Source: an uncultured Acidimicrobiales bacterium
Lineage (GTDB): Bacteria; Actinomycetota; Acidimicrobiia; Acidimicrobiales; AC-14
Assembly: GCA_902805665.1 (NCBI GenBank)
Contig: CADCTB010000173.1
Span: 1-48,146, forward strand
Direction: 5' to 3'
DNA length: 48,146 nucleotides
The notes under the pieces: generated by a model
Seen by the model: only the letters and a program-made list of their open reading frames with translations
Told to the model about the DNA's origin: nothing
Database searches by the model: none
Program-made: the position numbers and the translations under genes
Part shown: positions 2,935 through 20,145 of the stretch, one piece after another
How the letters are laid out: the number at the start of each line of letters is the position of its first letter
How positions within the stretch are numbered: position 1 is the stretch's first letter

Positions 2935-3699
2935 TCACTCCCCGAACCGCTTCATGCGCTCGAGCACGCGCTCGGCCGTCGGGGTGTGCATCTCGTCGAC
3001 GATCCTGCCGTCGGCGAGGAACACGATGCGGTCGGCGTAGCTGGCCGCGACCGGGTCGTGGGTCACCATCACGATCGTCTGGTTCATGGAGTCGACCGCC
3101 TGCCGCATGAACTGCAGGATCTCGGCGCCGGCATGCGAGTCGAGGTTGCCGGTGGGCTCGTCGGCGAAGATGATGTCGGGCCGGGTCGCCAATGCCCGGG
3201 CAACGGCCACCCGCTGCTGCTGGCCCCCCGACAGCTCTGACGGCCGGTGCTTCAGCCGGCCGGCGAGTCCGACCGTCTGGACGACCCGGTCGATCCACGA
3301 CTGGTCACCCTGGTGCCCGGCCAGCGTGAGGGGAAGGGTGATGTTCTCGATGGCCGTGAGCGTCGGGACGAGGTTGTAGGCCTGGAAGATGAACCCGACC
3401 CGGTCGCGGCGCAGGATGGTCAGCTTCTGGTCGTTGAGCAGGCTGACATCCGCGTCACCGATGAAGGCTTTTCCAGACGTGAGGGTGTCGAGCCCGGCGG
3501 TGCACTGGAGGAGGGTGGACTTCCCGGAGCCGGACGGCCCCATGATGGCGGTGAACCGCCCCGTCTCGAACTCGACAGAGACGCCGTCGAGAGCGCGTAC
3601 CTCGGTCTGGCCCTTCCCATAGACCTTGCGGGCGTCGACCGTGCGGGCCGCGGCGCGGGACTCGACTCGTCGGTGCAGGTCACTCGACAGTGTCGCCAT
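2935..3699 (-). CDS. ABC transporter ATP-binding protein, MacB/LolD type
   Basis: 254 residues from ATG 3699. The frame is open further upstream, but this ATG has AAAGGA at 8-nt spacing and gives a normal N-terminus. Walker A GPSGSGKST (residues 54-62), Q-loop region FIFQAYNLVPTLTA, signature LSGGQQQRVAVARAL, Walker B IIFADEPTGNLD and switch histidine in VTHDP are all intact, so it should be an active ATPase. The ADEPTGNLD signature and length are typical of the MacB/LolD/FtsE class that partners FtsX-fold permeases, and such a permease follows directly. First gene of the operon; its promoter must lie in 3700-3899, shared with the divergent kinase. Confidence 0.95.
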   Translation of the reverse strand: MATLSSDLHRRVESRAAARTVDARKVYGKGQTEVRALDGVSVEFETGRFTAIMGPSGSGKSTLLQCTAGLDTLTSGKAFIGDADVSLLNDQKLTILRRDRVGFIFQAYNLVPTLTAIENITLPLTLAGHQGDQSWIDRVVQTVGLAGRLKHRPSELSGGQQQRVAVARALATRPDIIFADEPTGNLDSHAGAEILQFMRQAVDSMNQTIVMVTHDPVAASYADRIVFLADGRIVDEMHTPTAERVLERMKRFGE

Positions 3700-3849
3700 G
3701 AAGGAGTTCCTTTCGTCTCGTGCGACTCTCAGCGGATGGTCTGCTGCGGGCGCGGCTCGAACGGGGACGCCGAGCTGTCTTCCAGCCGCATACTCGCGAT
3801 CCGGCTGCGGGGTCGTCATCGGCGCACTGACGCAAGACCGCCGGGACAT

Positions 3850-3899: not shown

Positions 3900-5702
3900 A
3901 TGGGGAGGACCGGCGGTGGGAAGGTGACCGAGCAACTTCTCGGACAGTTGGACGAGCCGCATGATCTGCTGGCCCTCGCCCATGACGCGGTCATCGTGCG
4001 CAGCGCCGCCGGCGAGATCACCTTCTGGAACAGGGGCGCGGAAGAGACCTATGGGTGGTCGGCTTCGGAAGCCATAGGCGCCATGACACACGACCTCCTG
4101 CAGACCCCGCCGGCAGCTGTGGCGGCGGTCGACGCGTCGTTGCGTTCGCATGGTGCGTGGGAAGGCGAGTTGCACCACGTCTGCAAGGACGGCTCGGAGG
4201 TCGTGGTCGCCAGCCGGCAGGTGCTACGCGAGGGCAGCGAGGGCCAGCACCAGGCGGTCCTCGAGATCAACCGGGACGTCACCGAGGCGAGGCGGGCCCA
4301 GGACCGCCTGAAGCAGAGCGAGGAGCGTTTCCGCCTCATCGTCGAACGGGTGGAGGACTACGCAATCTTCATGTTGGACGTCGAGGGCAACGTCGTGAGT
4401 TGGAACGCCGGCGCCCAACGCATGAAGGGCTACACCTCCGATGAGATCTGTGGTCAGCACTTCTCCCGCTTCTACCCGCCACAGGATGTGCAGGCCGGCA
4501 AGCCGGGCGAGGAGCTCCGCATCGCCGCAGCCGTGGGGCGCGTCGAGGACGAGGGGTGGCGGGTACGTAAGGACGGCTCCCGCTTCTGGGCCACCGTCGT
4601 GATCACCGCCCTGCGGGACGCCGATGGCGCGCTCCGGGGATTCGGCAAGGTCACCCGCGACATCACCGAACGCAGGCAGATCGAGGCCCGGCTGGAGTAC
4701 CAGGCCCGGCTCCTGGACTATGTGAACGACGCCATCGTGGCTGCGGACGAAAACCTTGTCCTCACGGCGTGGAACTCCGGGGCCGAGCGGCTGTATGGCT
4801 GGTCTGCGGACGAGGTCATCGGCAGGAGCACGGTCGACGTCCTCCGCACCGAGCTGTCCGACGCCGACCGTGAGGAAGCCCTGCGCGTCCTGAATGAGGG
4901 AGGAGAGTGGCGGGGGGAGGTGATCCAGCGGCACAAGGACGGTCACCGGCTCTACGTCGAGGCCGCGACCATCATCCTCCCGCACGGCCCCACCCGGCTG
5001 GTGAGCGTAAACCGCGACGTCGGCGATCGCCGGCGGTCACTGGTCATCGAAGAGCGGGGCCGCATTGCACGCGACCTGCACGATTCGGTGTCGCAGGCCC
5101 TCTTCTCGATGACGCTTCAGGCCAGAGCGCTGCAACTGGCCCTCGAGCGCGAGTGCCATGACCCCGGTGGGCCGGTGGGGGAGGGCATCACCAACATCCG
5201 CCAGCTGACGCAGGGCGCCCTGGCCGAGATGCGGGCCCTGATCTTCGAGCTCCGGCCCGGCGCACTCGCCGAGGAGGGGTTGGTCGCCGCGCTCCGCAAG
5301 CACGCGGCGGCGCTGGAGGCCAAGGAAGGCGTGGCCGTCACGCTCTCGGCTACGTCGGAGGAGCTTTCGCTCGAACCGGTGGTCGAGGAGAACCTGTACC
5401 GGCTGGCGCAGGAAGCCCTGAGCAATGTCGTCAAGCACTCCGGCGCCTCATCGGTTCAGATACGCCTGGACCTGTCCGGCGGATCTGTCCAGGACATCGA
5501 GCTGGAGATCGTCGACGACGGCATCGGTTTCGACACGGGCGCGAGCCACCCCGGGCACCTCGGCCTCAAGACGATGTCGGAGCGGGCCCAGGGGCTTGGC
5601 GGCACCCTGGACGTCAGGAGCGCACCGGGTCACGGAACGACGGTCCGAGCGTTCCTACCAGGAAGGAATCGCCCGCCCGTTCATCGGGGCTCCACCTCGT
5701 AG
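3900..5702 (+). CDS. Soluble multi-PAS sensor histidine kinase (HisKA_3/NarX class)
   Basis: 600 residues, no membrane helices, so a cytoplasmic sensor. Three PAS/PAC units are visible: about residues 18-130 (AHDAVIVRSAAGEITFWNRGAEETYGW), 140-260 (FRLIVERVEDYAIFMLD; GFGKVTRDITERR) and 265-375 (LDYVNDAIVAADENLVLTAW). The dimerisation/phosphoacceptor helix RIARDLHDSVSQALFS follows with His394, then an HATPase_c domain with N-box NLYRLAQEALSNVVKHS and G-boxes DDGIGFD and GHGTTV. This class phosphorylates NarL/FixJ-type regulators; one lies about 0.5 kb away on the opposite strand. Start: ATG 3900 has no clear RBS; GTG 3924 is an in-frame alternative that removes only eight residues. The 3' end overlaps the convergent receiver gene by 48 bp. 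Confidence 0.93.
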   Translation: MGRTGGGKVTEQLLGQLDEPHDLLALAHDAVIVRSAAGEITFWNRGAEETYGWSASEAIGAMTHDLLQTPPAAVAAVDASLRSHGAWEGELHHVCKDGSEVVVASRQVLREGSEGQHQAVLEINRDVTEARRAQDRLKQSEERFRLIVERVEDYAIFMLDVEGNVVSWNAGAQRMKGYTSDEICGQHFSRFYPPQDVQAGKPGEELRIAAAVGRVEDEGWRVRKDGSRFWATVVITALRDADGALRGFGKVTRDITERRQIEARLEYQARLLDYVNDAIVAADENLVLTAWNSGAERLYGWSADEVIGRSTVDVLRTELSDADREEALRVLNEGGEWRGEVIQRHKDGHRLYVEAATIILPHGPTRLVSVNRDVGDRRRSLVIEERGRIARDLHDSVSQALFSMTLQARALQLALERECHDPGGPVGEGITNIRQLTQGALAEMRALIFELRPGALAEEGLVAALRKHAAALEAKEGVAVTLSATSEELSLEPVVEENLYRLAQEALSNVVKHSGASSVQIRLDLSGGSVQDIELEIVDDGIGFDTGASHPGHLGLKTMSERAQGLGGTLDVRSAPGHGTTVRAFLPGRNRPPVHRGSTS

Positions 5703-6101
5703 GACGTCGAGGAGCGCCTCAGGAGTGACGCCCTTCTCCACGAACGCCGTCGCCCCAGCCTCGAGAGCCGCTGTCCGGAGCCCCACCCGGATGCTGAGGG
5801 CGACGACCTCACGCCCCCGGGCCACCAGACCGTGAATGACCGCCAGGCCGTCGCTCGCCGACGGAAGGAGGAGGTCGAGCAGCACGACGTCGGGGACGAG
5901 GTCTTCGTCGGCTCGGAGGGCGTCGGAGGCCGACGACGCCTCTCCGGCCAGCACCAGCCCCTCCGACGACGTGATCAGGGCACGCAGCGCCTGGCGGACC
6001 CGGGCGTCGTCGTCGATCACCAGCACGCGCCTTGTTTCGCCGGCACACGTCAGGTCTGCGATCACGTCTCCCCAGTCCTCGGCTCCATGCCCATTCAACA
6101 C
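5655..6101 (-). CDS. Receiver-only response regulator
   Basis: About 148 residues consisting of one CheY-like receiver: RRVLVIDDDARVRQALRAL (acidic pocket), PDVVLLDLLLP (phosphoacceptor Asp), VVALSIR (switch Ser) and ATAFVEKG (conserved Lys). No output domain follows; the protein ends shortly after helix 5. Start is uncertain. GTG 6101 has GAGG at 7-nt spacing and is chosen here; TTG 6128 and GTG 6062 are also in frame. It follows the NarL-type regulator on the same strand and its last 48 bp run antisense into the 3' end of the kinase gene. Probably a phosphate sink or protein-interaction regulator for that kinase (inference). Confidence 0.85.
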   Translation of the reverse strand: MLNGHGAEDWGDVIADLTCAGETRRVLVIDDDARVRQALRALITSSEGLVLAGEASSASDALRADEDLVPDVVLLDLLLPSASDGLAVIHGLVARGREVVALSIRVGLRTAALEAGATAFVEKGVTPEALLDVLRGGAPMNGRAIPSW

Positions 6102-6181
6102 AGGCGGTCCTCGCCACACCCGAGACAACTGACGACAACCTTGCAGGACAAAAGTCGCCCTGGAGCCGGTTCGTTCACGCC

Positions 6182-6883
6182 TCAGGGGTCCGTGGGAGAG
6201 GCGAGACCCTCACGGATGGCCCACAGGGCGGCCTGGGTCCTGGATCCGAGACCCAGCTTCAGCAGGATGTTGCTCACGTGGGTACGGGCGGTCCGCTCGC
6301 TGATCGTCAGCTCGTTCCCGATGGCCTTGTTGGACGCTCCCTTGGCCACCAGGACGAGCACCTCCCGCTCCCGCTCGGTCAGTGACTCTCGTTCCGGTTC
6401 GGGCCGCGGATCTCGCAGCGACTTGGCCAGCTGCCTGGCCGCGGCGGGCGCCAGGTACACCTCTCCTCGGTGGGCAGCGCGAATGGCCGCCGCCACTTCG
6501 TCGGCCTCGGCGTCCTTCAGGATGTATCCCATGGCGCCCGCCTGAAGAGCGGCGTGCACCTTCTCCTGGGCGACGAAGCTGGTCACCGCGACCACCTCCA
6601 CCTCCGGATGCGCGGCTTTGATCATCGCCGTCGCCTCGATACCCCCCATGCCGGGCATGAGCAGGTCCATCAGCACGACATGGGGTGGCCCTCCGTCGGT
6701 CGCGAGCGCGGCGATCCCGGCGACCGCCTCCTCGCCACGAGATGCCTCTCCGACGATGGCGATGTCGTCCAGCATCTCGAGGTAGGCGTGCATGCCCCGG
6801 CGGACGACGGCATGGTCGTCTACGAGGTAGACCCGGATCGGTAGCTCGTCCTCGCCGCCCTGACCACGGCCGGGGGCTGTCAT
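6182..6883 (-). CDS. NarL/FixJ-family response regulator (REC-LuxR HTH)
   Basis: 233 residues from ATG 6883, preceded by GGGAGG. The open frame extends 20 codons further but that stretch lacks a better start. Receiver at about residues 15-130 with VYLVDDHAVVRRGM, phosphoacceptor Asp73 in VVLMDLLMPGMGG, and ILKDA lysine. LuxR-type helix-turn-helix at about 165-225 (LTEREREVLVLVAKGASN...SERTARTHVSNILLKLGL). This is the standard partner of HisKA_3 kinases such as the one at 3900-5702, so it is the likely transcriptional output of that sensor. Target genes are unknown. It is first in a two-gene minus-strand unit with the receiver-only protein. Confidence 0.95.
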   Translation of the reverse strand: MTAPGRGQGGEDELPIRVYLVDDHAVVRRGMHAYLEMLDDIAIVGEASRGEEAVAGIAALATDGGPPHVVLMDLLMPGMGGIEATAMIKAAHPEVEVVAVTSFVAQEKVHAALQAGAMGYILKDAEADEVAAAIRAAHRGEVYLAPAAARQLAKSLRDPRPEPERESLTEREREVLVLVAKGASNKAIGNELTISERTARTHVSNILLKLGLGSRTQAALWAIREGLASPTDP

Positions 6884-7093
6884 CAGGGGCGGCCTCCCAG
6901 GCCTCGACGGACACCTTCGAGCGCCGGACGCATCTGCAGCCATCTACCCACGTCCGAGCCGGATCCCACCCGCGAGGTGCACCTGCGCCTAGGTCACTTG
7001 TCTCGCGCCATCTGTGTCACTCTGCCGATGCGTGTGGGGTGGGCCGGTCGCGAGAATGCGAGGAGGTATGACCGGCTGCATCAGGAGGAACAG

Positions 7094-8055: not shown

Positions 8056-8895
8056 TCAGAGCACGCGCCGCGGGAAGGTCCGGCTGGCGATGGCGACGGC
8101 CACCACGATCCCGCCCACCAGCACCGCGGCATCGAAGAGCAGGCGGTTCGGACCGATGCCGACGAGGAGCTGCCGCAGGATCTCGACGAGATAGGTCAGG
8201 GGATTGACTCGTGCGACACCCTGCAACCAGCCCGGCATGATCGAGACCGAGTACAGCGCGTTCGACGCGAACAGCAGGGGCAGGGTGACGAGCTGCCCGA
8301 GGCCCATGAACTGCTCCCGGCTCCGGACCATCGAGGCGATGACCATGGAGATGGCGGAGAGCAGCGTGGCCCCCAGCAACACCGCCACCAGCGAGCCGAC
8401 CACCGCCCCCACCGACCACTCCAGCGGTATCCGGATGATCGCCACGACCGCCAGCACGATGGCCACCTGGATCACGGCCCGCATGGCGGCACTCACCGCC
8501 TTCCCGAGGATGACGGCGCTCCGCGAGGCCGGGGCGACGAGGATCCGCTGGGTGATGCCGAGGTCCCGCTCCCAGATGATCGCCATCCCGGAGAAGATGG
8601 CGATGAACAGCACCGACTGGGCCAGGACGCCGGGGACGAGGAAGGCCTTGTACGGAACGCCTTCGGCACCGAGCTCGGGCACCCTCGACACCGCGGCCCC
8701 GAAGACCAGCAGCCACAGGAGGGGCTGGGCGGCGCGGGCGACGAGGACCGAGCGCTCCCGGCGGGCCCGATGGATCTCGGCCTGGGACATGGCGACGACC
8801 GTGCTGGCGTAGGACGCGACCCGCTGGCGGGGCGAGAGCGCAGGGACCGCCTCAACCAAGGCGTCGGGCGGTGCGGCGGGTGCGGCTGATATCAC
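8056..8895 (-). CDS. ABC-2 type (DrrB-like) export permease
   Basis: About 279 residues. GTG 8895 is chosen because GGAGG lies 8 nt upstream inside the 3' end of the ATPase gene, giving a 44-bp overlap; ATG 8790 is a possible shorter start. Six hydrophobic segments follow a cytoplasmic N-terminus. Family features include the amphipathic start (ARRERSVLVARAAQPLLWLLVFG), the WERDLGITQRILVAP segment and the end VNPLTYLVEILRQLLVG, typical of daunorubicin-resistance DrrB permeases. It forms the membrane part of an exporter with the preceding ATPase. Natural substrate unknown. Confidence 0.9.
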   Translation of the reverse strand: MISAAPAAPPDALVEAVPALSPRQRVASYASTVVAMSQAEIHRARRERSVLVARAAQPLLWLLVFGAAVSRVPELGAEGVPYKAFLVPGVLAQSVLFIAIFSGMAIIWERDLGITQRILVAPASRSAVILGKAVSAAMRAVIQVAIVLAVVAIIRIPLEWSVGAVVGSLVAVLLGATLLSAISMVIASMVRSREQFMGLGQLVTLPLLFASNALYSVSIMPGWLQGVARVNPLTYLVEILRQLLVGIGPNRLLFDAAVLVGGIVVAVAIASRTFPRRVL

Positions 8896-9655
8896 GGAGA
8901 TCACCTCCCTCGGTGTCGGCCTCGGTGCCGGAGGTGAGGGCCACGAAGACGTCTTCCAGCGTGCCTCCCGTGGCGCCGAGCGACGCACGGAGATCCTGCG
9001 GGGTTCCCTCGCCCCTGATGCGACCGCCGCTCATCACCGCCACCCGCTGGCACTGCTCCTCGGCTTCCTCCATCAGGTGGGTGGTGACCAGCATGGTGAG
9101 CCCGGTCTCCTCGCGCATCTCGGCGAGGTGGCGCCACACGGCCCGTCGGGCGACGGGGTCGAGCCCGATCGTCGGTTCGTCGAGGAGCAGGAGGCGGGGC
9201 CGGTGCAGCAGGGCGCACGCGATCTCGAGCCGCCGCACCATGCCTCCGGAGTAGGACCGGACCACGCGGTCGGCTGCGCCGCCGATGTCCATGAGGTCGA
9301 GCATGGCGTCGATCCGCTGGGCCCGCTCCGACCGGGGGACGCGGTGGAGCTGGGCGAACAGCGACGCGTTCTCGCGCCCGGTGAGGGAGCCGTCGGCGGA
9401 GAGCGCCTGCGGGACGTAGCCGATCAGTTGCCGGACGGTGGCCGCCTCGGCCGCCACCTCGTGGCCGAGGATCCACGCCCGTCCGGCCGCCGGCCGCAGG
9501 AGGGTGGTCAGGACCCGCATGATCGACGTCTTCCCCGCCCCGTTCGGCCCCAGGAGGCCGAACACCTCGCCTGCCTCCACCCCGAAGCCGGCGCCCTGCA
9601 CTGCGACAAAGTCGCCGTAGCGGACGACGAGCTCGTCGACGATCAGCGCCTTCAT
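8852..9655 (-). CDS. ABC exporter ATP-binding protein, DrrA family
   Basis: 267 residues from ATG 9655, which directly abuts the methyltransferase stop codon (TGAATG), indicating coupled translation. Walker A LLGPNGAGKTS, Q-loop IGYVPQALS, signature YSGGMVRRLEIACALLH, Walker B LLLLDEPTIGLDP and switch VTTHLMEEAE are complete. The C-terminal GGTLEDVFVALTSG segment is the regulatory tail typical of DrrA-type ATPases. It should energise the DrrB-like permease that overlaps its 3' end. These pairs export hydrophobic small molecules or lipids. Confidence 0.95.
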   Translation of the reverse strand: MKALIVDELVVRYGDFVAVQGAGFGVEAGEVFGLLGPNGAGKTSIMRVLTTLLRPAAGRAWILGHEVAAEAATVRQLIGYVPQALSADGSLTGRENASLFAQLHRVPRSERAQRIDAMLDLMDIGGAADRVVRSYSGGMVRRLEIACALLHRPRLLLLDEPTIGLDPVARRAVWRHLAEMREETGLTMLVTTHLMEEAEEQCQRVAVMSGGRIRGEGTPQDLRASLGATGGTLEDVFVALTSGTEADTEGGDLRDISRTRRTARRLG

Positions 9656-10600
9656 TCAGACGGCGAAGAGCACCGACCTGGATCCCTGTCCGGGAAGGTC
9701 CAGGACTCTCTCGTCGACGGTGAACCCGGCCTCTCCCAACCAGGCGCGGTACTCCGCTTCGGTGTGGGTGTCGCCCCCGTTGTCGTTGACCAGCATCTGC
9801 ACCGCGAACAGCGGCGTGAGCGGGTTGCGGCCCCGCAGGAACGTGACGACCGCGACCCCTCCACCTGGCGCGATCACCGGCCGGAGGTTCCCGAAAAGTG
9901 TGCGGTTGCGCTCGCCGTCGAAGGTGTGGGTGATCCCCGAGCAGAACGCGAGGTCGAACGGCCCCTCCGGGACCGTGTCGAAGAAGCTGCCCTCGTACAG
10001 CTCGACACCCGCAGCCTCCAGCCGGCCCCGGCGCCGGGCCACCTCGATCATGGCCGGCTGATCCTGCATGGTGGCCCGCAGACCACCGCGGGTGAACTCG
10101 AGGGAGTACTCGCCATGGAGGCCGCCGAGGTCGAGCACGCGGCGAGCCTCGGGAAAGCGCCGCAGGCAGACGTCGACCACCTCCGGCGCAACTTTCCGGG
10201 CGTTCGCAGCCAAGGCGTCGTGGAACATGTCGGGGTCGGTGATGCCGGCCGGGTCGCGGGTCGGCTCCCCCCGGAGCCTGGGCTCCAGGGCAGTGGCCCA
10301 TCGGCGGAGGGCACGGGCGTGGTGGCGCACGGTGGCCAGGGCGGCAGGCTCCGGTGCGGTTGCTCCCAGCATGAACCGGCCGTTGTCATCCGACTCCAGG
10401 ACGCCCAAAGCGCCGAGGGCGTCGAGGACCACCCGCAGGGCCTGCGGCTCCAACCCGGTCCGGTCGGCGAGCTCGTCCGGCGTGCCGGGCAGTTTCTCGA
10501 AGACACCGGTGGCGGCCGCGGCGTCGCACAACACCACGACGCGCCAGTCGGCAGCCTCACCCGGAGGGGCCAGAAAGGTGAGGTCGGTCGGCAGGGTCAC
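9656..10600 (-). CDS. SAM-dependent methyltransferase with winged-helix dimerisation domain (O-methyltransferase-2-like)
   Basis: 314 residues from GTG 10600 (GAGGAA at 8-nt spacing). An N-terminal helix-turn-helix dimerisation region at about residues 22-90 is followed by a Rossmann methyltransferase: motif I VLDLGGLHGEYS (155-166), acidic QDQP, and FDLAFCSGITHTF. The fold order matches small-molecule O-/C-methyltransferases of plant OMT or hydroxyneurosporene-methyltransferase type. Motif I reads GGLHG rather than the usual GGGxG. It is first in an operon with a DrrAB-type exporter, suggesting that it modifies a metabolite the pump exports (inference). Substrate unknown. Confidence 0.85.
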   Translation of the reverse strand: MTLPTDLTFLAPPGEAADWRVVVLCDAAAATGVFEKLPGTPDELADRTGLEPQALRVVLDALGALGVLESDDNGRFMLGATAPEPAALATVRHHARALRRWATALEPRLRGEPTRDPAGITDPDMFHDALAANARKVAPEVVDVCLRRFPEARRVLDLGGLHGEYSLEFTRGGLRATMQDQPAMIEVARRRGRLEAAGVELYEGSFFDTVPEGPFDLAFCSGITHTFDGERNRTLFGNLRPVIAPGGGVAVVTFLRGRNPLTPLFAVQMLVNDNGGDTHTEAEYRAWLGEAGFTVDERVLDLPGQGSRSVLFAV

Positions 10601-10647: not shown

Positions 10648-12627
10648 CTACGGGTGCCAGTCGACGAAGAGCAGCGTGGCGTCGTCGGCCAGCGGGCCCT
10701 CGCGGTGGCCCCGCACGGCCCGCACCAGCCGGCGCACGGTCTCGGCCATACTCTGGTCGTCGGCGAGCGCCCGCCGGGTGAGGTCGACGAGCCGGTCTCT
10801 CCCGAACTGCTCACCACCCGGCGAGCCGGCTTCGATGATTCCGTCGCTGAAGAACAGGACGGCGTCGCCCGGCTCGAGGTCCACCTTGGAGATCGACGCC
10901 TCGGGGTCGCCCAGCCCGAGGGGAAGCATCGGCGGGCAGTGAAGCTCGAACGCCACCCGCCCTCCACGAAGGAGCATCGGCTGAGGGTGACCGGCATTGA
11001 GCCATCGCAGCGTGCCGCTGACGGTGTCCAGCGTGGCCAGCTGCGCGGTGACGAAGCTGTCGTCCGGGAACTGGTTGGTGACGGCCTCGTCCATGAGCCG
11101 GTAGGTCGCCTCCAGATCCAGGCCACGGCGGCGGGCCATCCGGTAGGCCGACGTGGCCAGGTTGGCCATCTGGCTCGCTTCCAGCCCGTGGCCCATGGCG
11201 TCCATGACCGCCAGGTGCAGGACGCCGTCGTTGACCGCATAGTCGAATGCGTCACCCGCCACCTCGTACGCGGGCTCCAGGACGCAGGCGATCCCGACGC
11301 TCTCGCCCGTGAAGGTGAGGGGCGGAAGCATGGCCCAGCGCATCTCCGCGGCCAGGGTCATCTGCTGGTCCCGTCGGACCATGCCGAGCAGGTCGCCGTA
11401 CTGGCTCTTGGAGACGATCAGCTCGGCCACGACGCCCGCCAGCTCTTCGCAGCGGTCGAGAACCTCGTCGGAGACGGCAGGGCTGCGCAGGTGCAGGACG
11501 CCGAGGCGTTCGGAACCATCGATCAGCGGCATCCAGATGCCGAAGACGTCGCCGCTCGTGACCACCACCGGCCGCTCGAGCTGAAACGCCCGACCGGCGA
11601 CACTGGTGTCCACGTCCTGAGGTCCCAGGTCGTCGAGACCGGGAGGAAGCGGGGTCAGCACCCGCTGCTCCAGGTCCACCAGGAGGACCGATGCGTCGTG
11701 AAAGCCACCGCACCGGCTCTGCTCGGCCACGAGGAGACCGACGTCGTCAGGGCCCAGCCGGGTCGACTTCCGGATCAGGTTCGACACGACGTCGCGGATG
11801 CTCTCGGCCAGTTCCCCCGCCTGTACGGCGGTCGATGTCTTGTCAGGTCCCGCGGACGGGCCGGCCGGCGACCGGAGGCGCTCGGAGCGCAGAGCGACCT
11901 CACGTCCCGCGTCGGCCACCATCTCCTGGGCGATCTCGCGGAGCTTCCGGTTCTCTCTCTGAGACGCCCGGACGAGGAGTTGCAGAGCCTCCTCGGCGTT
12001 GCACCCCCGGCTACCCATCAGGATGCCCTTGGCCTGCTCGACGGTGGATCTCGAGGTCATTGCCGTGGCCAGGCTCTGGCTGAGGTGGTGGGCGTCCCAG
12101 TACGCCTGGGAGTTGGCCAGCACGCTGGCCGCCTGGGTGGCGAACTGCAAGCCCATCTCGACATCGTCATCGGAGAACGCTTCGGTGGAGCGGGAGTAGA
12201 AGTTCAGGGCTCCGACGCCTTCGTGGCGGGCGACAAGGGGTACCGACATCGAGCTCTGAATGCCGTGGGCGCCGGCGGCCTCACTGAACGGCGGCCACTG
12301 GCGGTCCTTCTCCATGAAGTCGATCCGGTAGACCTGTTGGTGGCGGAACGAGTCGAGGCACGGCCCGATGCCGGTCTCGTACTGAGCGGCGTCGATCTCC
12401 GGGCAGCAGTCGTCGGTGAACACCGCGGTCTTGGCCCGGCCCTCGACCAGCATGGTCATCCCTGCCATGTCGGCGCCTGGCACCGCCTCGACAGCCAGGT
12501 CCGCGATCCGCTGGAGGGTCTCCCGCAGGGTGCCATCGCCCACGAAGAAACGGGCCATGGCCACCAAGCCATTGCTCAACGACACCGAATCGGCCGGCAC
12601 GACCAGCTCCTTGCCCTGGCGAGCCAC
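10648..12627 (-). CDS. GAF-ANTAR-GAF-SpoIIE multidomain PP2C-type phosphatase
   Basis: 659 residues, GTG start with AGGGGG at 5-nt spacing. Order: GAF about 25-175 (with CCPEID and ETGIGPC); ANTAR three-helix RNA-binding module about 183-241 (STVEQAKGILMGSRGCNAEEALQLL); a second GAF-like region about 265-420; and SpoIIE/PP2C-type phosphatase about 430-658 with metal-binding signatures VMDAMGHGLEA, FFSDGIIEAG and ADDATLLFVD. SpoIIE phosphatases usually dephosphorylate anti-anti-sigma factors. ANTAR domains usually bind paired hairpins in nascent RNA. Having both in one polypeptide suggests one signal feeds two outputs. No anti-sigma or STAS gene is adjacent, so the partner is elsewhere. Confidence 0.92.
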   Translation of the reverse strand: MARQGKELVVPADSVSLSNGLVAMARFFVGDGTLRETLQRIADLAVEAVPGADMAGMTMLVEGRAKTAVFTDDCCPEIDAAQYETGIGPCLDSFRHQQVYRIDFMEKDRQWPPFSEAAGAHGIQSSMSVPLVARHEGVGALNFYSRSTEAFSDDDVEMGLQFATQAASVLANSQAYWDAHHLSQSLATAMTSRSTVEQAKGILMGSRGCNAEEALQLLVRASQRENRKLREIAQEMVADAGREVALRSERLRSPAGPSAGPDKTSTAVQAGELAESIRDVVSNLIRKSTRLGPDDVGLLVAEQSRCGGFHDASVLLVDLEQRVLTPLPPGLDDLGPQDVDTSVAGRAFQLERPVVVTSGDVFGIWMPLIDGSERLGVLHLRSPAVSDEVLDRCEELAGVVAELIVSKSQYGDLLGMVRRDQQMTLAAEMRWAMLPPLTFTGESVGIACVLEPAYEVAGDAFDYAVNDGVLHLAVMDAMGHGLEASQMANLATSAYRMARRRGLDLEATYRLMDEAVTNQFPDDSFVTAQLATLDTVSGTLRWLNAGHPQPMLLRGGRVAFELHCPPMLPLGLGDPEASISKVDLEPGDAVLFFSDGIIEAGSPGGEQFGRDRLVDLTRRALADDQSMAETVRRLVRAVRGHREGPLADDATLLFVDWHP

Positions 12628-13906: not shown

Positions 13907-15334
13907 TCAGCAGGGCGGAGGGGCCGGCTTGGTGGTGTCGGGGCTGCCGGGGCCGGGGGCGCCGGTTGTCGGAGCAGCGGGGGCCGCCGCCCGCAGGCCG
14001 GTGTAGTCCGTGCCCAGGACGAGGGCCACGTCGGCCCCCACGAGGTTCTTGTCCTCCTCGATGCTGGCGCCGGCGGCGAGTGCGCTCTTCAGGGCGGCGG
14101 CCTTGGCCTGCTGGCCGGGCGCGTACCGCACGATCGTCTGTGAGTAGTCGTAGCTCGGGGCATCGCCGGTGGACGCCACCCGGTATCCGGCCTGGGTGAG
14201 GGAGCTGGCTGCCACCGACGCCGATGCGTCGGCGCCGTTTCCGTTGAGCACTTTGATCGCGATGTCCGCGGGCCGGACCGACACAGGGGCGGGGGGCCGG
14301 ATGCCGTTGAGCCGGTCGATGTACTCCCTGGCCTTGGCGGTGTCGAGGCGCTGGATCGCGGCGCCGCCCGCGAAGTCGTCGGACGTCGGCAGCGTCAGCA
14401 TGTCGACGGTGTCCGGGTCGATGGACCGGAACCGGCGAGCGAGGGTGGTGATGTCCTTCGTGGACATCTGCTGGTCGACGCGGACGTTGTCGACGCCGAT
14501 GCGGATCAGGCGGTTGAGGGTGAGCGGGTTGCTCAAGCCGGACGAGACCGCCTTCCTCATCATGCGGCGGATGAAGTCCTGCTGGCGGGCGATCCGGTCG
14601 ATGTCGGAGTTGCTGCCCTCCACCCATCGCCCCCGCTCGTAGGTCTGGTAGTAGCGGCTCCGGACGAATGCCAGGGCCTGGTACCCGTCGAGCTCGTTGC
14701 ACCCGGCCATGGGGATGTCGAGGCCGGTCATCTCGTCGCGTGCGGGGGCGTCGGCGTGGACCTTGATGCCGCCGATGGCGTTGACGATGCGCTCGACGCC
14801 GCCGAAGTCCACCTCGACGTAGTGGTTGATCTCGATCCCCAGCGCCTCCTTGATGGTCTGGATCAGCAGCTGAGGCCCACCGATCGAGAAAGAGGCGTTC
14901 ACCTTGTCCCGCCCGTTGCCCGGAATGGGAACGTAGAGGTCCCTGGGGATGGAGAGAATCGCCGCCTTCTGCTGTTGCGGATCGATGTGCAGCACCATGA
15001 TGGTGTCGCTGCGCTGGCCGCCGGTGCCGTCGTCGCCCTTGCCTGTCGCGTCGGCGACGTGACCGGTGGTGTTCTCGCGACTGTCGGAGCCGACGAGCAG
15101 GACGTTCATGACCTTGCCGCTCTCGTCGTCGGCGAGGCCGGGGATCTTCAGGCGGGTGAGGGAGTCCAACTGGTGGCGGAAATAGAAGTAGCTGCTACCC
15201 ACGAGCAGCACACAAAGGGCGAGGAAGGCGACCAGACCGACGCGAACCCGGCTACGCCACGGGCCCTGGCGCGTTCCGGCGCGCCGTAGTCCGGCCGGGT
15301 GTGCCACGGAGCAACAGTAGCGGGCCGAACTCAT
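13907..15334 (-). CDS. LytR-CpsA-Psr (LCP) family cell-wall glycopolymer ligase with LytR_C domain
   Basis: 475 residues. One N-terminal membrane helix (about 31-51, VGLVAFLALCVLLVGSSYFY) places the rest outside the cell. The LCP domain spans about 75-320, with catalytic-type motifs VGSDSRENT, RSDTIMVLHI, SIPRDLYVPIPG and LAFVRSRYY. A LytR_C domain sits at about 350-440 (IKVLNGNG...YRVASTGDAPS), then a Pro/Ala/Thr tail ending in Cys. LCP proteins transfer lipid-linked glycopolymers to peptidoglycan. Start: ATG 15334 is used; GTG 15307 is a good alternative that gives a larger gap to the divergent glutamate dehydrogenase gene. No T-rich terminator separates it from the convergent neighbour. 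Confidence 0.93.
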   Translation of the reverse strand: MSSARYCCSVAHPAGLRRAGTRQGPWRSRVRVGLVAFLALCVLLVGSSYFYFRHQLDSLTRLKIPGLADDESGKVMNVLLVGSDSRENTTGHVADATGKGDDGTGGQRSDTIMVLHIDPQQQKAAILSIPRDLYVPIPGNGRDKVNASFSIGGPQLLIQTIKEALGIEINHYVEVDFGGVERIVNAIGGIKVHADAPARDEMTGLDIPMAGCNELDGYQALAFVRSRYYQTYERGRWVEGSNSDIDRIARQQDFIRRMMRKAVSSGLSNPLTLNRLIRIGVDNVRVDQQMSTKDITTLARRFRSIDPDTVDMLTLPTSDDFAGGAAIQRLDTAKAREYIDRLNGIRPPAPVSVRPADIAIKVLNGNGADASASVAASSLTQAGYRVASTGDAPSYDYSQTIVRYAPGQQAKAAALKSALAAGASIEEDKNLVGADVALVLGTDYTGLRAAAPAAPTTGAPGPGSPDTTKPAPPPC

Positions 15335-15417
15335 TTCTCAGCGGCATGCCGGGCAGGGACCGCCGGTTCCGGATGAGCCCGAGGTACGATCGAATCGCAC
15401 AGCATTCAGGAGGACGC

Positions 15418-18400
15418 GTGGGCGCAGGGGCCGGCGAGGACGACCGGGAGGGCCCTGCGTCCCTGGCCTCCATCCTCAGCCGGCTGGAGGCCATGCCCGG
15501 CGTTGGCCGGGAGACTCGAATCTCCGTGCTGCAGGAGTTCGCCTGTGCCGTGCTGCGGCGGGTGCCCGCGACCCAGTTGGCTCTCGCCGACCCGGTCGCG
15601 ACGGCGCAAGCGGTGGTCGACAGCTTCGACTTCGTCGACACGCGATCGCCCGAGGAGGTTCGTGTCCGTGTCTACGACCCCGACGTCGCGCTCGACGGCG
15701 GGCGCCCGGTGGGGTCGGTGGTCGAGGTCAGCGGCGAGGACCGCCAGTTCATCGTCTCCAGCGTCACCGAGGAGCTACGACGGCTCGGGCACAAGGTGGT
15801 CCGTGAGCTCCACCCCGTCTTCGGATGCCACCGGGACGCCGACGGCCGGCTGGCGGCGATCCTCCCGGCCCGACCGGCGGCCTGGCGGGAGTCGTTCCTC
15901 CAGGCGGAGATCGGCGACCGGGTGGGCCCCGATGCCCGAGCGGCGCTCGTCGCCGCACTGGAATCGGTTCTCGCCGACGTCTACTCGGCCACGGGCGACT
16001 ACGTCGCCATGCGGGGGCAGGTCGAGGCCGCCGCCGCGTCCGCCCGGGCCTCCGTCGGTGATGTCCCGGTCGACGAGGCGTCGGAGGCGGGTGACCTGCT
16101 CGAGTGGTTGCTCGACGGCAACTTCGTCCTGTCCGGCTGCTGCCGGTTCCGGGCGCCCGAGGGAACGGTCACCGATGCGCTCGGCATCCTTTCCCGGCCC
16201 GACGCCGCCTTGCGTCGCCGCCCGCGTGGACCCGCGCCGGCCGGTCTGCTCAAGATCGTCCGCACCGCCGAGGTCAGCACCGTCCACCGCCAGGTGCCGT
16301 TGCACTGCATCGACCTGATCGAGCCAGGCGGCGGGGTGTTCCGGGTGGTCGGCGTGTTCACCGGCAAGGCGAACGCGGAGCCGGCGGCGGTGACGCCGGT
16401 GCTGCGGTTCAAGCTGCGCCGCATCCTGGAGCTGGAGGACGTCGTCGAGCGCAGCCAGGACGAAGCCGCGTTGGTGTCGCTGTTCCAGGCCCTGCCCAAG
16501 GACCAGCTGTTCGAGCTCGACGTGGCCTCGCTCCGGCGGCTGCTGGTGGAGCTGCTCACCGCCGAGGACGAGCACGAGGTCCGGGTGCTCGTGCGGGTCG
16601 ACCGGGCCAACCACACCGTCTCCGCCCTTCTTTCTGTGCCGGTCGAGATCTACAACCCGACCCTGCGCCACCGTCTCGAACGGTTCCTCCTGGCCCAGCT
16701 CGACGGTGATCGGGTCGACGTCGACGTCTCCCTGGGCGACCGTCCCGAGGCCATCGTGCGGTTCCTCGTCCACGTCGCCGAGCCTCCTCCCGACGAGCCG
16801 CTCGACGCGCTCGAGCGGGAGCTGCGCCTGCTGTGCCGCACGTGGGACCAGCAGCTGGCGGCGGCCCTGGAGGCAACGGCGGGCGACGCAGGGACCCGCC
16901 TGGCCCAGGCGTGGGCGGGCTGGTTCCCCTCGTCCTATCGGGATGCGGTCGCGCCCGAGGCCGCCATCGTCGACGTCCTGCAGCTCGAGGAGCTGTTCGC
17001 CGGTGACGACCACATTCGGATCGTCCTCTCCACCGGCGCCGACGGCGGACCCCCGGCCCGTCTCAAGGTCTTCACCGCCGGCCCGGGCGTGGAGTTGTCG
17101 GGGTTCCTTCCCATCCTCGAGAGCCTGGGCCTGTGGGCCGTCGAGGACCGGCCGTACGCGCTGGGCGGCGAGGAGGCCCCGGCCCATCTCCACGACTTCG
17201 GGGTCAAGGATCCCAGCGGCGCCCTCGACGTCGGCCGGGACGGTCCGCGGTTGGCCGCCGCCGCCCTGGCCCTGTGGCAGGGCCGGGCGGAGGTGGACTC
17301 CCTCAACCGGCTGGTCCTGCGGTCCGGCATGGACTGGGACGACGTGGCCGTCCTACGGGCCTACCGCCGGTACCGCAGCCAGGTGGGGACCACGTTCACC
17401 ACCGCCTACGTGGACCAGGTCCTCGTCGACAACGCGGCGATCGCCGCCGGCCTCGTGGAGTTGTTCGCCGCCCTGTTCGACCCGGGTCGCGGCGCTGGGC
17501 CCGAAGTGGTGGCCGAGCTGCATCAGCGGGTGGTGGACGGCTGTGACGCCGTCGCCCGGCTGGACCACGACCGGATCCTGCGGGGGTTCCTGGCCCTGGT
17601 CGACGCCACCCTGCGTACCAACCGGTATGTCGGCACCGGTGGGGATCATCTGGCGCTGAAAGTGGAGAGCGCGGCCGTGCCCGGTATGCCCCGGCCGGTG
17701 CCGTTCCGCGAGATCTTCGTGCACGGGCCGGCGGTTGAGGGCATCCACCTGCGCTGGGGGCCGGTGGCCCGCGGCGGCATCCGCTGGAGCGACCGCGTCG
17801 ACGACTACCGCAGCGAGGTCCTCGACCTCATGCGGGCCCAGGTGCTCAAGAACGCGGTGATCGTGCCGACCGGCGCCAAGGGGGGTTTCGTGGTGCGGCG
17901 GCCCGCGGCCGGCATCGGCCCGGGTGCGGCCGACGTCGTCCGGGCCTACGAGATCTTCGTGGGCTGCATGCTCGACGTCACCGACAACGTCGTCGGCGAC
18001 GAGGTGGTCGCCGTGCCTCGGCGCCGCGACGGTGATGACAGCTACCTGGTCGTCGCCGCCGATCGCGGGACCGCGTCGTTCTCCGACCTGGCCAACCGGG
18101 TGAGCACCGAGCACGGGTTCTGGTTGGGCGACGCCTTCGCGTCGGGTGGGTCGAGCGGGTACGACCACAAGCGGCTGGGGATCACCGCCCGGGGTGCGTG
18201 GGTGGCGGTGCGCCACCACTTCGCCGAGCTGGAGATCGACGTGCAGTCCGAGCCGGTGACGGTCGTCGGCATCGGCGACATGTCGGGCGACGTCTTCGGC
18301 AACGCCATGCTGCGGTCGGAGCAGATCCGCCTGGTCGCCGCGTTCGACCACCGCGACATCTTCATCGACCCCGACCCCGATCCGGCCGCGTCGTACCGGG

Positions 18401-20145
18401 AGCGGGCCCGGCTGTTCGCACTGCCCCGATCGTCCTGGCAGGACTACGACCGTTCGCTGATCAGTTCCGGCGGCGGGGTGTGGTCACGGCTGGAGAAGCG
18501 GATCCCTCTGAGCGAAGCGACCCGGGCCGTCCTGCGGGTGGAGGCCGCCGAGCTGACGGCCCCGGAGCTGATCCGGGCCATCCTCCAGGCGCCCGTCGGC
18601 CTGCTCTTCACCGGAGGCATCGGCACCTTCGTCCGGGCCAGCACCGAGCCCGATCAGGAGATCGACGACCGGGCCAACGCCGACGTGCGCGTCGAGGGGT
18701 CGTCGGTGCGGGCACGGGTGGTGGGGGAGGGGGCCAACCTGGGGTTCACCCAGCGGGCCCGCATCGAGTACGCCCGGCGCGGCGGCCACGTCAACACCGA
18801 CGCCATCGACAACGCGGCCGGAGTCGACATCTCCGACCACGAGGTCAACCTGAAGATCCTCCTGCGGGCACCTGTGGAAGGTGGTGAGCTCAGCGTTCCC
18901 GACCGTGACCGGCTTCTCCACGAGGTGTGCGACGAGGTGACGGAGGCTGTCCTCTGCGACTGCGCGCTGCAGAGCATGGCCCTGTCCCGCGCCTTCGCCG
19001 GCAGCTCCTCCGACATGGCCGCCACCGAGGCGCTGATGGAGGAGCTGGAGGCGGCCGGCGTCGTCGACCGGGCGGTGGAGGCCCTGCCGGACGCCGCCGA
19101 GATGCGCGTTCGGACAGAGGCCGGCGCCGGCCTCACCCGTCCGGAGCTGGCCGTCCTGTTGGCCGGCGCCAAGCGGAGTCTCAGCGCCCGCCTGCTGGCC
19201 TCCGGCGTGCCTGACCAGGCTGCGCTCCACGACGCCCTCGTCGCCTACTTCCCACCGCGACTCGTCCGGCGCTTCCGGCACCTCCTCCCCGGCCACCGCC
19301 TCCGGCGGGAGCTGGTGGCCTCGGTGGTGGCGAACGACGTGGTCAACCGGATGGGGGCGACGTTCGTCACCCGGGTGGCCGGCGATACGGGCGCTGGGGC
19401 ACCGGCCGTCGCCGCGGCGTACTGGATCGCCCGCAGCGTCGTCTGTGCCGGCGAGCTGTGGGCCGAGCTCGACGGCGACGACGGCGTGCCACCCACGGGC
19501 ACCCTTCTCGCCGCTGCGCCGGTGATCAGCGACCTGCTCGACGCGTTGACCCGCGACTACCTGCGCCGCAACGAGACCGGCGACATCGCCGCCACCGTCG
19601 CCCGTGACCGCCCGGCGCTGGCCGAGCTGGCCGGCGGGATCGGCGGCGTCGGGACTCCGTACCGTCGCCGGCTCAGAGCGCGCCGGGCCGAGACGCTCGT
19701 CGACAGCGGCCTTCAACCGGAGCTGGCCCTGCGCTGGGCCGCCCTACCTGAGCTGGAGGTCGGCGCGGACGCGGCCGAGCTGGCCCGGGTCACCGGTCGA
19801 CCGGTGACCGCGGTGGCCGAGGCGTTGCTCCAGCTCGGTGAGTCGCTCGGAATCGACCGGCTGTCCGAACGGCTCCGCCAGGCCGTGCCCGAGGGACGCT
19901 GGGGTCGCGCAGCATGGCGGGGGCTGGTCGACGACCTCGACCACCTGAGGCGGGCGGCGGCGGAGCGCGCCCTGGAGGACCACCCGAAGGAGTCGGAGGC
20001 GGAAGCGGTGCTCCGGTTCCTCCTCGACCGAGCCGCCCATGTCGGAGAGCTCACCCGCCTGCTCAGGGAGATCGAGGGTGAGCCACAACCGTCGCTCGAC
20101 GCGGTGGCCGTGGCCACACGCGCCGTGCGACGGACGATCGAGTAG
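15418..20145 (+). CDS. gdh: NAD-specific glutamate dehydrogenase, large (GDH-180 type)
   Basis: 1,575 residues, the size class of the ~180-kDa bacterial GDH that converts glutamate to 2-oxoglutarate and ammonia with NAD. GTG 15418 is chosen over upstream in-frame starts because AGGAGG lies 4-5 nt before it. The long N-terminal regulatory region (about 1-690) includes ACT-like segments. The catalytic core follows: RWGPVARGGIRWSDRVDDYR, VLKNAVIVPTGAKGGFVVRR (substrate lysine in PTGAKGG), then a Rossmann NAD domain (VVGIGDMSGDVFGNAML) and VGEGANLGFTQ. The C-terminal helical domain completes the family length. Transcription diverges from the LCP gene; a TACGAT element at about 15384 could be its -10 box. 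Stand-alone gene. Confidence 0.95.
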   Translation: MGAGAGEDDREGPASLASILSRLEAMPGVGRETRISVLQEFACAVLRRVPATQLALADPVATAQAVVDSFDFVDTRSPEEVRVRVYDPDVALDGGRPVGSVVEVSGEDRQFIVSSVTEELRRLGHKVVRELHPVFGCHRDADGRLAAILPARPAAWRESFLQAEIGDRVGPDARAALVAALESVLADVYSATGDYVAMRGQVEAAAASARASVGDVPVDEASEAGDLLEWLLDGNFVLSGCCRFRAPEGTVTDALGILSRPDAALRRRPRGPAPAGLLKIVRTAEVSTVHRQVPLHCIDLIEPGGGVFRVVGVFTGKANAEPAAVTPVLRFKLRRILELEDVVERSQDEAALVSLFQALPKDQLFELDVASLRRLLVELLTAEDEHEVRVLVRVDRANHTVSALLSVPVEIYNPTLRHRLERFLLAQLDGDRVDVDVSLGDRPEAIVRFLVHVAEPPPDEPLDALERELRLLCRTWDQQLAAALEATAGDAGTRLAQAWAGWFPSSYRDAVAPEAAIVDVLQLEELFAGDDHIRIVLSTGADGGPPARLKVFTAGPGVELSGFLPILESLGLWAVEDRPYALGGEEAPAHLHDFGVKDPSGALDVGRDGPRLAAAALALWQGRAEVDSLNRLVLRSGMDWDDVAVLRAYRRYRSQVGTTFTTAYVDQVLVDNAAIAAGLVELFAALFDPGRGAGPEVVAELHQRVVDGCDAVARLDHDRILRGFLALVDATLRTNRYVGTGGDHLALKVESAAVPGMPRPVPFREIFVHGPAVEGIHLRWGPVARGGIRWSDRVDDYRSEVLDLMRAQVLKNAVIVPTGAKGGFVVRRPAAGIGPGAADVVRAYEIFVGCMLDVTDNVVGDEVVAVPRRRDGDDSYLVVAADRGTASFSDLANRVSTEHGFWLGDAFASGGSSGYDHKRLGITARGAWVAVRHHFAELEIDVQSEPVTVVGIGDMSGDVFGNAMLRSEQIRLVAAFDHRDIFIDPDPDPAASYRERARLFALPRSSWQDYDRSLISSGGGVWSRLEKRIPLSEATRAVLRVEAAELTAPELIRAILQAPVGLLFTGGIGTFVRASTEPDQEIDDRANADVRVEGSSVRARVVGEGANLGFTQRARIEYARRGGHVNTDAIDNAAGVDISDHEVNLKILLRAPVEGGELSVPDRDRLLHEVCDEVTEAVLCDCALQSMALSRAFAGSSSDMAATEALMEELEAAGVVDRAVEALPDAAEMRVRTEAGAGLTRPELAVLLAGAKRSLSARLLASGVPDQAALHDALVAYFPPRLVRRFRHLLPGHRLRRELVASVVANDVVNRMGATFVTRVAGDTGAGAPAVAAAYWIARSVVCAGELWAELDGDDGVPPTGTLLAAAPVISDLLDALTRDYLRRNETGDIAATVARDRPALAELAGGIGGVGTPYRRRLRARRAETLVDSGLQPELALRWAALPELEVGADAAELARVTGRPVTAVAEALLQLGESLGIDRLSERLRQAVPEGRWGRAAWRGLVDDLDHLRRAAAERALEDHPKESEAEAVLRFLLDRAAHVGELTRLLREIEGEPQPSLDAVAVATRAVRRTIE

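Follow-up and report, generated by a model that had tools for sequence, protein, structure and literature searches.

An apparent in-frame fusion of ANTAR and SpoIIE-type phosphatase domains in an uncultured Acidimicrobiales bacterium, with a probably altered RNA site

Does a protein that joins an RNA-binding ANTAR domain to a SpoIIE phosphatase place transcript elongation and sigma-factor release under a single GAF signal? The question is raised by one gene in a 48,146-nucleotide stretch of DNA from an uncultured Acidimicrobiales bacterium (the window, meaning the whole stretch analysed), for which an earlier note had suggested exactly such joint control.

Domain layout of the open reading frame

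The gene occupies a single open frame on the minus strand, with 689 codons from stop to stop and 659 amino acids counted from the GTG at 12627; no internal stop codon was found in this frame between 10648 and 12627. Codon-position GC is gene-like throughout the 659-residue frame (0.72/0.46/0.88), the signal being weaker solely in a Pro/Ala/Ser-rich linker at residues 241-270 (0.77/0.70/0.77). The product, here called P0001, and its parts are as follows.

10648..12627, minus strand: whole open reading frame, P0001, 659 aa, GAF-ANTAR-GAF-PP2C (open reading frame listing, Pfam)
12118..12531, minus strand: GAF domain 1, residues 33-170 (Pfam GAF_2, E 5.7e-20)
11917..12075, minus strand: ANTAR domain, residues 185-237 (Pfam, E 2.1e-17; 63.1 bits against a cut-off of 27.3)
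11983..11985, minus strand: Leu215 codon, at the position of EutV Tyr164 and NasR Trp362, which stack on G4 of the RNA loop (placed by alignments; role as given in parts of PMC8934654 and PMC7496416)
11833..11895, minus strand: junction or linker, residues about 245-265 (tblastn; a stand-alone PP2C relative from genome G711 aligns from residue 247)
11407..11751, minus strand: second GAF-like domain, residues about 293-407 (model m719f2cbd2fb5; GAF_2 matches in members of the C-half alignment other than P0001)
10651..11346, minus strand: SpoIIE/RsbU-type PP2C (PPM) phosphatase, residues about 428-659 (Pfam SpoIIE at 467-657, E 2e-45; 155.6 bits against a cut-off of 25)

The Pfam matches for GAF_2, ANTAR and SpoIIE are all over their cut-offs and far beyond chance, which bears out the earlier description of a 659-residue frame carrying these three domains. 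The order GAF-ANTAR-GAF-SpoIIE holds for the three; at residues ~293-407 of P0001, where the second GAF would lie, no Pfam GAF profile matched, even up to E 0.1. This second GAF is supported indirectly by relatives and by a confident model: GAF_2 is matched by 21 of the 49 members of the C-half alignment (best 1.9e-6, P0001 being outside these 21), and the AlphaFold model of residues 255-659 (mean pLDDT 92.7) shows at ~293-407, as we read its secondary structure, helices and five strands arranged in a GAF-like order, followed by the PP2C domain. In the fold lists for the C half, 50 rows each, every chain was a phosphatase or was aligned over that part of the protein, and the lists were uninformative on this point.

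The N half (residues 1-254) and the C half (255-659) were aligned and modelled separately, and only as monomers. In the N-half model (mean pLDDT 90.9), GAF 1 has a pLDDT of at least 93 for each ten-residue block from 41 to 170 and is followed by a long, coiled-coil-like helix (153-207) that runs into the ANTAR, then by helix 211-225 and an exit helix at 229-252 (block pLDDT 85-98 over the ANTAR helices). The best 50 Foldseek rows for the N half were mostly GAF or phytochrome-type sensor chains, with no ANTAR-named entry among them.

P0001 may head an operon, as its gene lies 47 bp upstream of a methyltransferase gene on the same strand that is followed by an ABC-2 exporter pair.

9656..10600, minus strand: O-methyltransferase-type gene, 47 bp downstream of P0001 (PF00891, E 6e-14)
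8852-9655, minus strand: ABC ATPase (PF00005, E 1.6e-31)
8056-8988, minus strand: ABC-2 permease (PF01061, E 2.8e-38)

Judging from the spacing, the ATPase and the permease perhaps belong to the same transcription unit. Orthologs of the methyltransferase (70-79%) are present in four related genomes (G198, G199, G203 and G202), and no P0001 match at 1e-8 was found within 4.4-5.7 kb on either side of them. Elsewhere in the window, the region 3900-6943 encodes a histidine kinase with three PAS matches and, on the other strand, a receiver-only protein and a LuxR-type response regulator; a large NAD-dependent glutamate dehydrogenase of 1614 aa lies at 15301-20145.

Catalytic and RNA-contact residues

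The phosphatase half appears intact. Asp 459, 462, 476, 595, 648 and 649 are invariant in all 49 C-half sequences, P0001 included, and we take D459, D476, D595 and D648/D649 to be the metal ligands, as in SpoIIE; the loss of such ligands, which the earlier note had raised as an objection to its own proposal, was thus not seen. By sequence, the closest solved chain is the RsbU domain of Rv1364c (PDB 3ke6, E 1.9e-13). The top VIA-align match of the C half is 3ke6_A (Z 27.2, rmsd 2.3, 222 aligned), whereas in Foldseek Bacillus subtilis SpoIIE (5ucg_B) heads the list, followed by 3ke6_B.

Candidate partners are encoded in the same genome. A profile search of its contigs gave 15 SpoIIE matches, 5 STAS matches and 27 HATPase_c_2 matches (13 over the cut-off), and on one contig (C75) a STAS gene adjoins a HATPase gene, so that the STAS and RsbW-type proteins presupposed for a SpoIIE phosphatase do occur. 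On the contig of P0001 itself, the STAS/HATPase_c_2 search listed only a histidine-kinase ATPase, below the cut-off. It is natural to infer from these sequences that the phosphatase is an active enzyme that would act on a STAS substrate. A further contig of this genome (C44) carries two ANTAR matches (1219-1377 and 1987-2115, the second without the usual Lys and aromatic residue), a STAS match (3432-3701) and a SpoIIE/PP2C match (8259-8834) within ~8 kb.

The second objection named in the earlier note, absence of the residues needed for RNA contact, proved partly founded: most of these residues are kept, and the aromatic residue that stacks on G4 is replaced. Of the conserved basic and polar recognition residues (EutV R142, K149 and R177; NasR R340 and N373), P0001 keeps R193 (at EutV R142), K200 (EutV K149), N226 (NasR N373) and K228 (EutV R177), and most of the 24 proteins in the alignment do likewise; at the EutV R177 position, Lys is found in 22 of the 24 rows as well as in P0001. 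With Gln223 added, these are the clade-consensus ANTAR residues that it retains. P0001 carries two changes (I196V and F215L) among 15 conserved ANTAR positions, compared with none or one in 21 of the 23 other aligned proteins. Leu215, aligned to both EutV and NasR, is the residue at the stacking position. This position is aromatic in 33 of 38 distinct ANTAR segments (32 Phe, 1 Trp), and the remainder comprise four Leu, P0001 among them, and one Arg. The four other non-aromatic segments all also lack Lys at the K149 position and look degenerate in sequence. The coupling of both losses is not strict, since two of the 38 segments have the aromatic residue yet no Lys.

According to parts of PMC8934654, EutV binds RNA 55-fold more weakly with Y164A and 60-fold more weakly with E160A, and binding is absent in M172A and in N173A/R175A/R177A. 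Passages of PMC7496416 report that binding by NasR is lost in W362A and retained in W362F. R366 of NasR is another position whose mutation abolishes binding. EutV is an imperfect yardstick because the whole clade diverges from it at other contact positions: Glu is found at E160 in 1 of 24 proteins, Gln at M172 in 23 of 24, and Asn at N173 in 5 of 24. Leu215 sets P0001 apart from its relatives in the alignments; the E160, M172 and N173 positions do not. Its nearest paralog, a stand-alone GAF-ANTAR protein of the same genome (contig C144) that is 68% identical to the N half, retains Phe at the stacking position. At the NasR R366 position, P0001 has Val219, and so, in an alignment read by eye, does this Phe-bearing paralog, so that Val219 is not a feature linked to the fusion. 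We consider RNA binding by the ANTAR of P0001 to be probably weakened or altered, because the stacking aromatic residue is Leu; binding may nevertheless survive, as the five clade-consensus residues are kept and the replacement is Leu rather than Ala.

In the 48 kb window we searched for strict dual A1/G4 hexaloop hairpins (stem of at least 4, linker 2-25), with ten shuffles of the plus strand as the control. With this stem length, two were found on each strand, compared with a shuffle mean of 1.4 (range 0-5); with a stem of at least 5 there were none on either strand, compared with a mean of 0.3. Such hairpins, as sought by this simple pattern in the window only, are at chance level, and none of the four lies at the P0001 operon. 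The scan is a weak one because both the sequence and the structure of ANTAR RNAs differ among actinobacteria, as stated in part of PMC8164766.

Degenerate ANTARs without the conserved Lys or the stacking aromatic residue were also observed at four other loci (L005 116-868, L007 1954-2712, L059 1-423 and L092 875-1174). Each locus carries an intact-looking GAF-ANTAR frame as well, and the degenerate copies are perhaps heterodimer partners.

Rarity and origin of the fusion

Whole-protein searches were made in six overlapping samples of 198, 60, 396, 397, 394 and 6 genomes from sampled groups, with E thresholds of 1e-30 to 1e-70. The candidates scored per genome were the best 6 in the 198-genome sample, up to 20 in that of 60, the best 3 in those of 396, 397 and 394, and all in that of 6. 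Among the matches listed for these samples, none but P0001 itself spanned both halves; relatives were present as separate GAF-ANTAR and GAF-PP2C genes. A scan of 84,980 species genomes, whose reach is limited to close relatives, yielded 13 loci, and the N half was matched at none of them. Among plasmids, a single record covered at least 80% of P0001, in the form of two neighbouring genes, and in a search with the 61-aa ANTAR the best 60 of 123 records had no phosphatase-named feature under the match (in 40 of these records the matched region carried no named feature at all). A PF03861 census of 60 relatives, 56 of them with a match, listed five ANTAR frames of more than 500 aa, one being P0001; among the matches listed, no PP2C was found in the other four (G214, G210, G138 and G236) or in the frames just under 500 aa in G231 and G202. 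The literature searched, mostly non-subscription and so no proof that the combination is unpublished, did not bring together ANTAR with SpoIIE, or the ANTAR domain with phosphatase and GAF.

The length of the sequence after the ANTAR gives the same picture. Across 43 distinct domains in closed frames, 422 residues follow the ANTAR in P0001, compared with 4-38 in all 42 others; the C144 paralog stops 11 residues after it. The C half is 63-64% identical to the product of a stand-alone gene in G711, and the tblastn alignment to that gene (63% over 414 columns) starts at residue 247; the join thus falls between residues ~238 and ~250. No ANTAR match was found in the 4.6 kb upstream of the G711 gene.

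P0001 thus looks like a lineage-restricted in-frame fusion, because the other genomes sampled keep the halves apart and only its ANTAR has more than 38 trailing residues. It is a rare domain combination built from two ordinary families, a variant and not a new kind of system. The combination turned up in none of the other genomes sampled, so conservation gives no argument that a dual output was selected; the fusion is represented by a single sequence.

Unfused GAF-ANTAR and PP2C genes are neighbours on a Streptomyces plasmid (65 bp apart), in Nocardia farcinica and in G079 (L063), and in the reverse order, PP2C-ANTAR, in G138 (L180). No gene-pair (Rosetta stone) enrichment of ANTAR with PP2C can be asserted, as only 4 of 114 PP2C-subfamily ORFs share a locus with an ANTAR; the 114 include three copies of the P0001 gene and some loci counted twice, and the flanks vary, mostly 1.5 kb. 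Of these four, one has its ANTAR on the other strand, and the two from plasmids were preselected for matching both halves. On plasmid NZ_CP071045.1 of Streptomyces sp. CA-256286 (L071, 2873-7925), STAS, ANTAR, GAF-ANTAR and PP2C genes are clustered, and an IS5 transposase separates the two ANTAR genes; this cluster is a possible unfused counterpart of P0001.

Competing readings and known systems

The most likely reading, to which we give slightly better than an even chance, is that P0001 is a fused STAS-type PPM phosphatase with a captured GAF-coiled-coil-ANTAR unit as its input module. Two formerly stand-alone genes, one for a GAF-ANTAR and one for a GAF-PP2C protein, would have been joined in frame within the lineage, and the product, a PPM phosphatase of the RsbU/Rv1364c type, would work as a dimer and remove phosphate from a STAS anti-anti-sigma protein. 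The GAF-coiled-coil-ANTAR unit would act as an additional N-terminal sensor and dimerisation module, whose state would reach the second GAF and the phosphatase by way of helical linkers, the ANTAR serving mainly as sensor and dimer input with weak or altered RNA binding. Parts of PMC12143880 propose, as a general control of PPM phosphatases, that exchangeable sensor domains switch them through dimeric coiled-coil linkers, and parts of PMC7496416 propose release of autoinhibition within constitutive dimers for one-component ANTAR proteins; a GAF-coiled-coil-ANTAR unit could therefore precede a GAF-PP2C unit and still relay a signal.

The joint control of elongation and sigma release suggested at the outset is possible, doubtful on the sequences compared, and less likely than the title of the earlier note suggests. 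This reading, in which GAF 1 governs phosphatase activity together with RNA binding by the ANTAR, and through the latter antitermination or translation, seems to us unlikely: both modules are present, the clade-typical ANTAR residues are mostly retained, and in PAL of Nakamurella an ANTAR is autoinhibited by a neighbouring sensor domain in one chain (part of PMC9614035), but Leu215 occupies the stacking site, the dual hairpins of the window are not above chance and are absent from the P0001 operon, and the sampled genomes yielded no second case. We give still less credence to the ANTAR being a functionless, decaying passenger left by a chance fusion; the fusion was found in one genome only and the altered conserved positions exceed those of most aligned relatives, whereas the domain is full length, is matched and modelled with high confidence, and has a gene-like codon signal across it. 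A more speculative idea, which we regard as improbable, is a bifunctional RNA-binding phosphatase in which RNA occupancy of the ANTAR would alter the dimer and switch dephosphorylation of the anti-anti-sigma protein, the Leu site recognising a changed hairpin; if true, a transcript would feed back directly on sigma-factor release. An artefact, either a misjoined contig or a stop lost between two genes, seems to us very improbable: the genome is a draft of 227 contigs with 4.4% contamination, an orthologous fusion was not found in the sampled genomes and the linker codon signal is weaker, but the join is in frame, the G711 alignment reaches into the linker so that no frame break is seen, and the ANTAR-then-PP2C order recurs between neighbouring genes in the Streptomyces plasmid and the Nocardia record.

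A natural chain of ANTAR and PPM domains offers a test case for one sensor setting two outputs, or for an ANTAR as mere transmitter. Seen in one genome and with its RNA site altered, the fusion is useful as an object for such tests and is not evidence of a widespread system.

Read as a phosphatase with a captured input module, P0001 can be set beside four known kinds of protein. Rv1364c of Mycobacterium tuberculosis resembles it as a sensor-coupled RsbU-type phosphatase, closest among solved chains by sequence and first in VIA-align; PDB 3ke6 comprises its RsbU and RsbW domains. To our knowledge, Rv1364c has no ANTAR. It differs also in bearing C-terminal anti-sigma and anti-anti-sigma domains (part of PMC12143880). 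One-component GAF-ANTAR proteins share the N half, as the C144 paralog illustrates, but end within a few tens of residues of the ANTAR, and that paralog has Phe where P0001 has Leu. Stand-alone GAF-PP2C phosphatases, with RsbZ and OsaC of comparable layout (part of PMC12143880), share the C half, as the G711 protein does. Unlike P0001, they have no ANTAR in their frame. PAL of Nakamurella multipartita (PDB 6hmj) combines an ANTAR with PAS and LOV sensors in one chain and is the closest solved ANTAR by sequence. We take its order to be PAS-ANTAR-LOV, in keeping with a match at residues 126-180 of the 373 in the chain, and we know of no enzyme domain in it. At the stacking position, PAL has Phe, in contrast to Leu215 of P0001.
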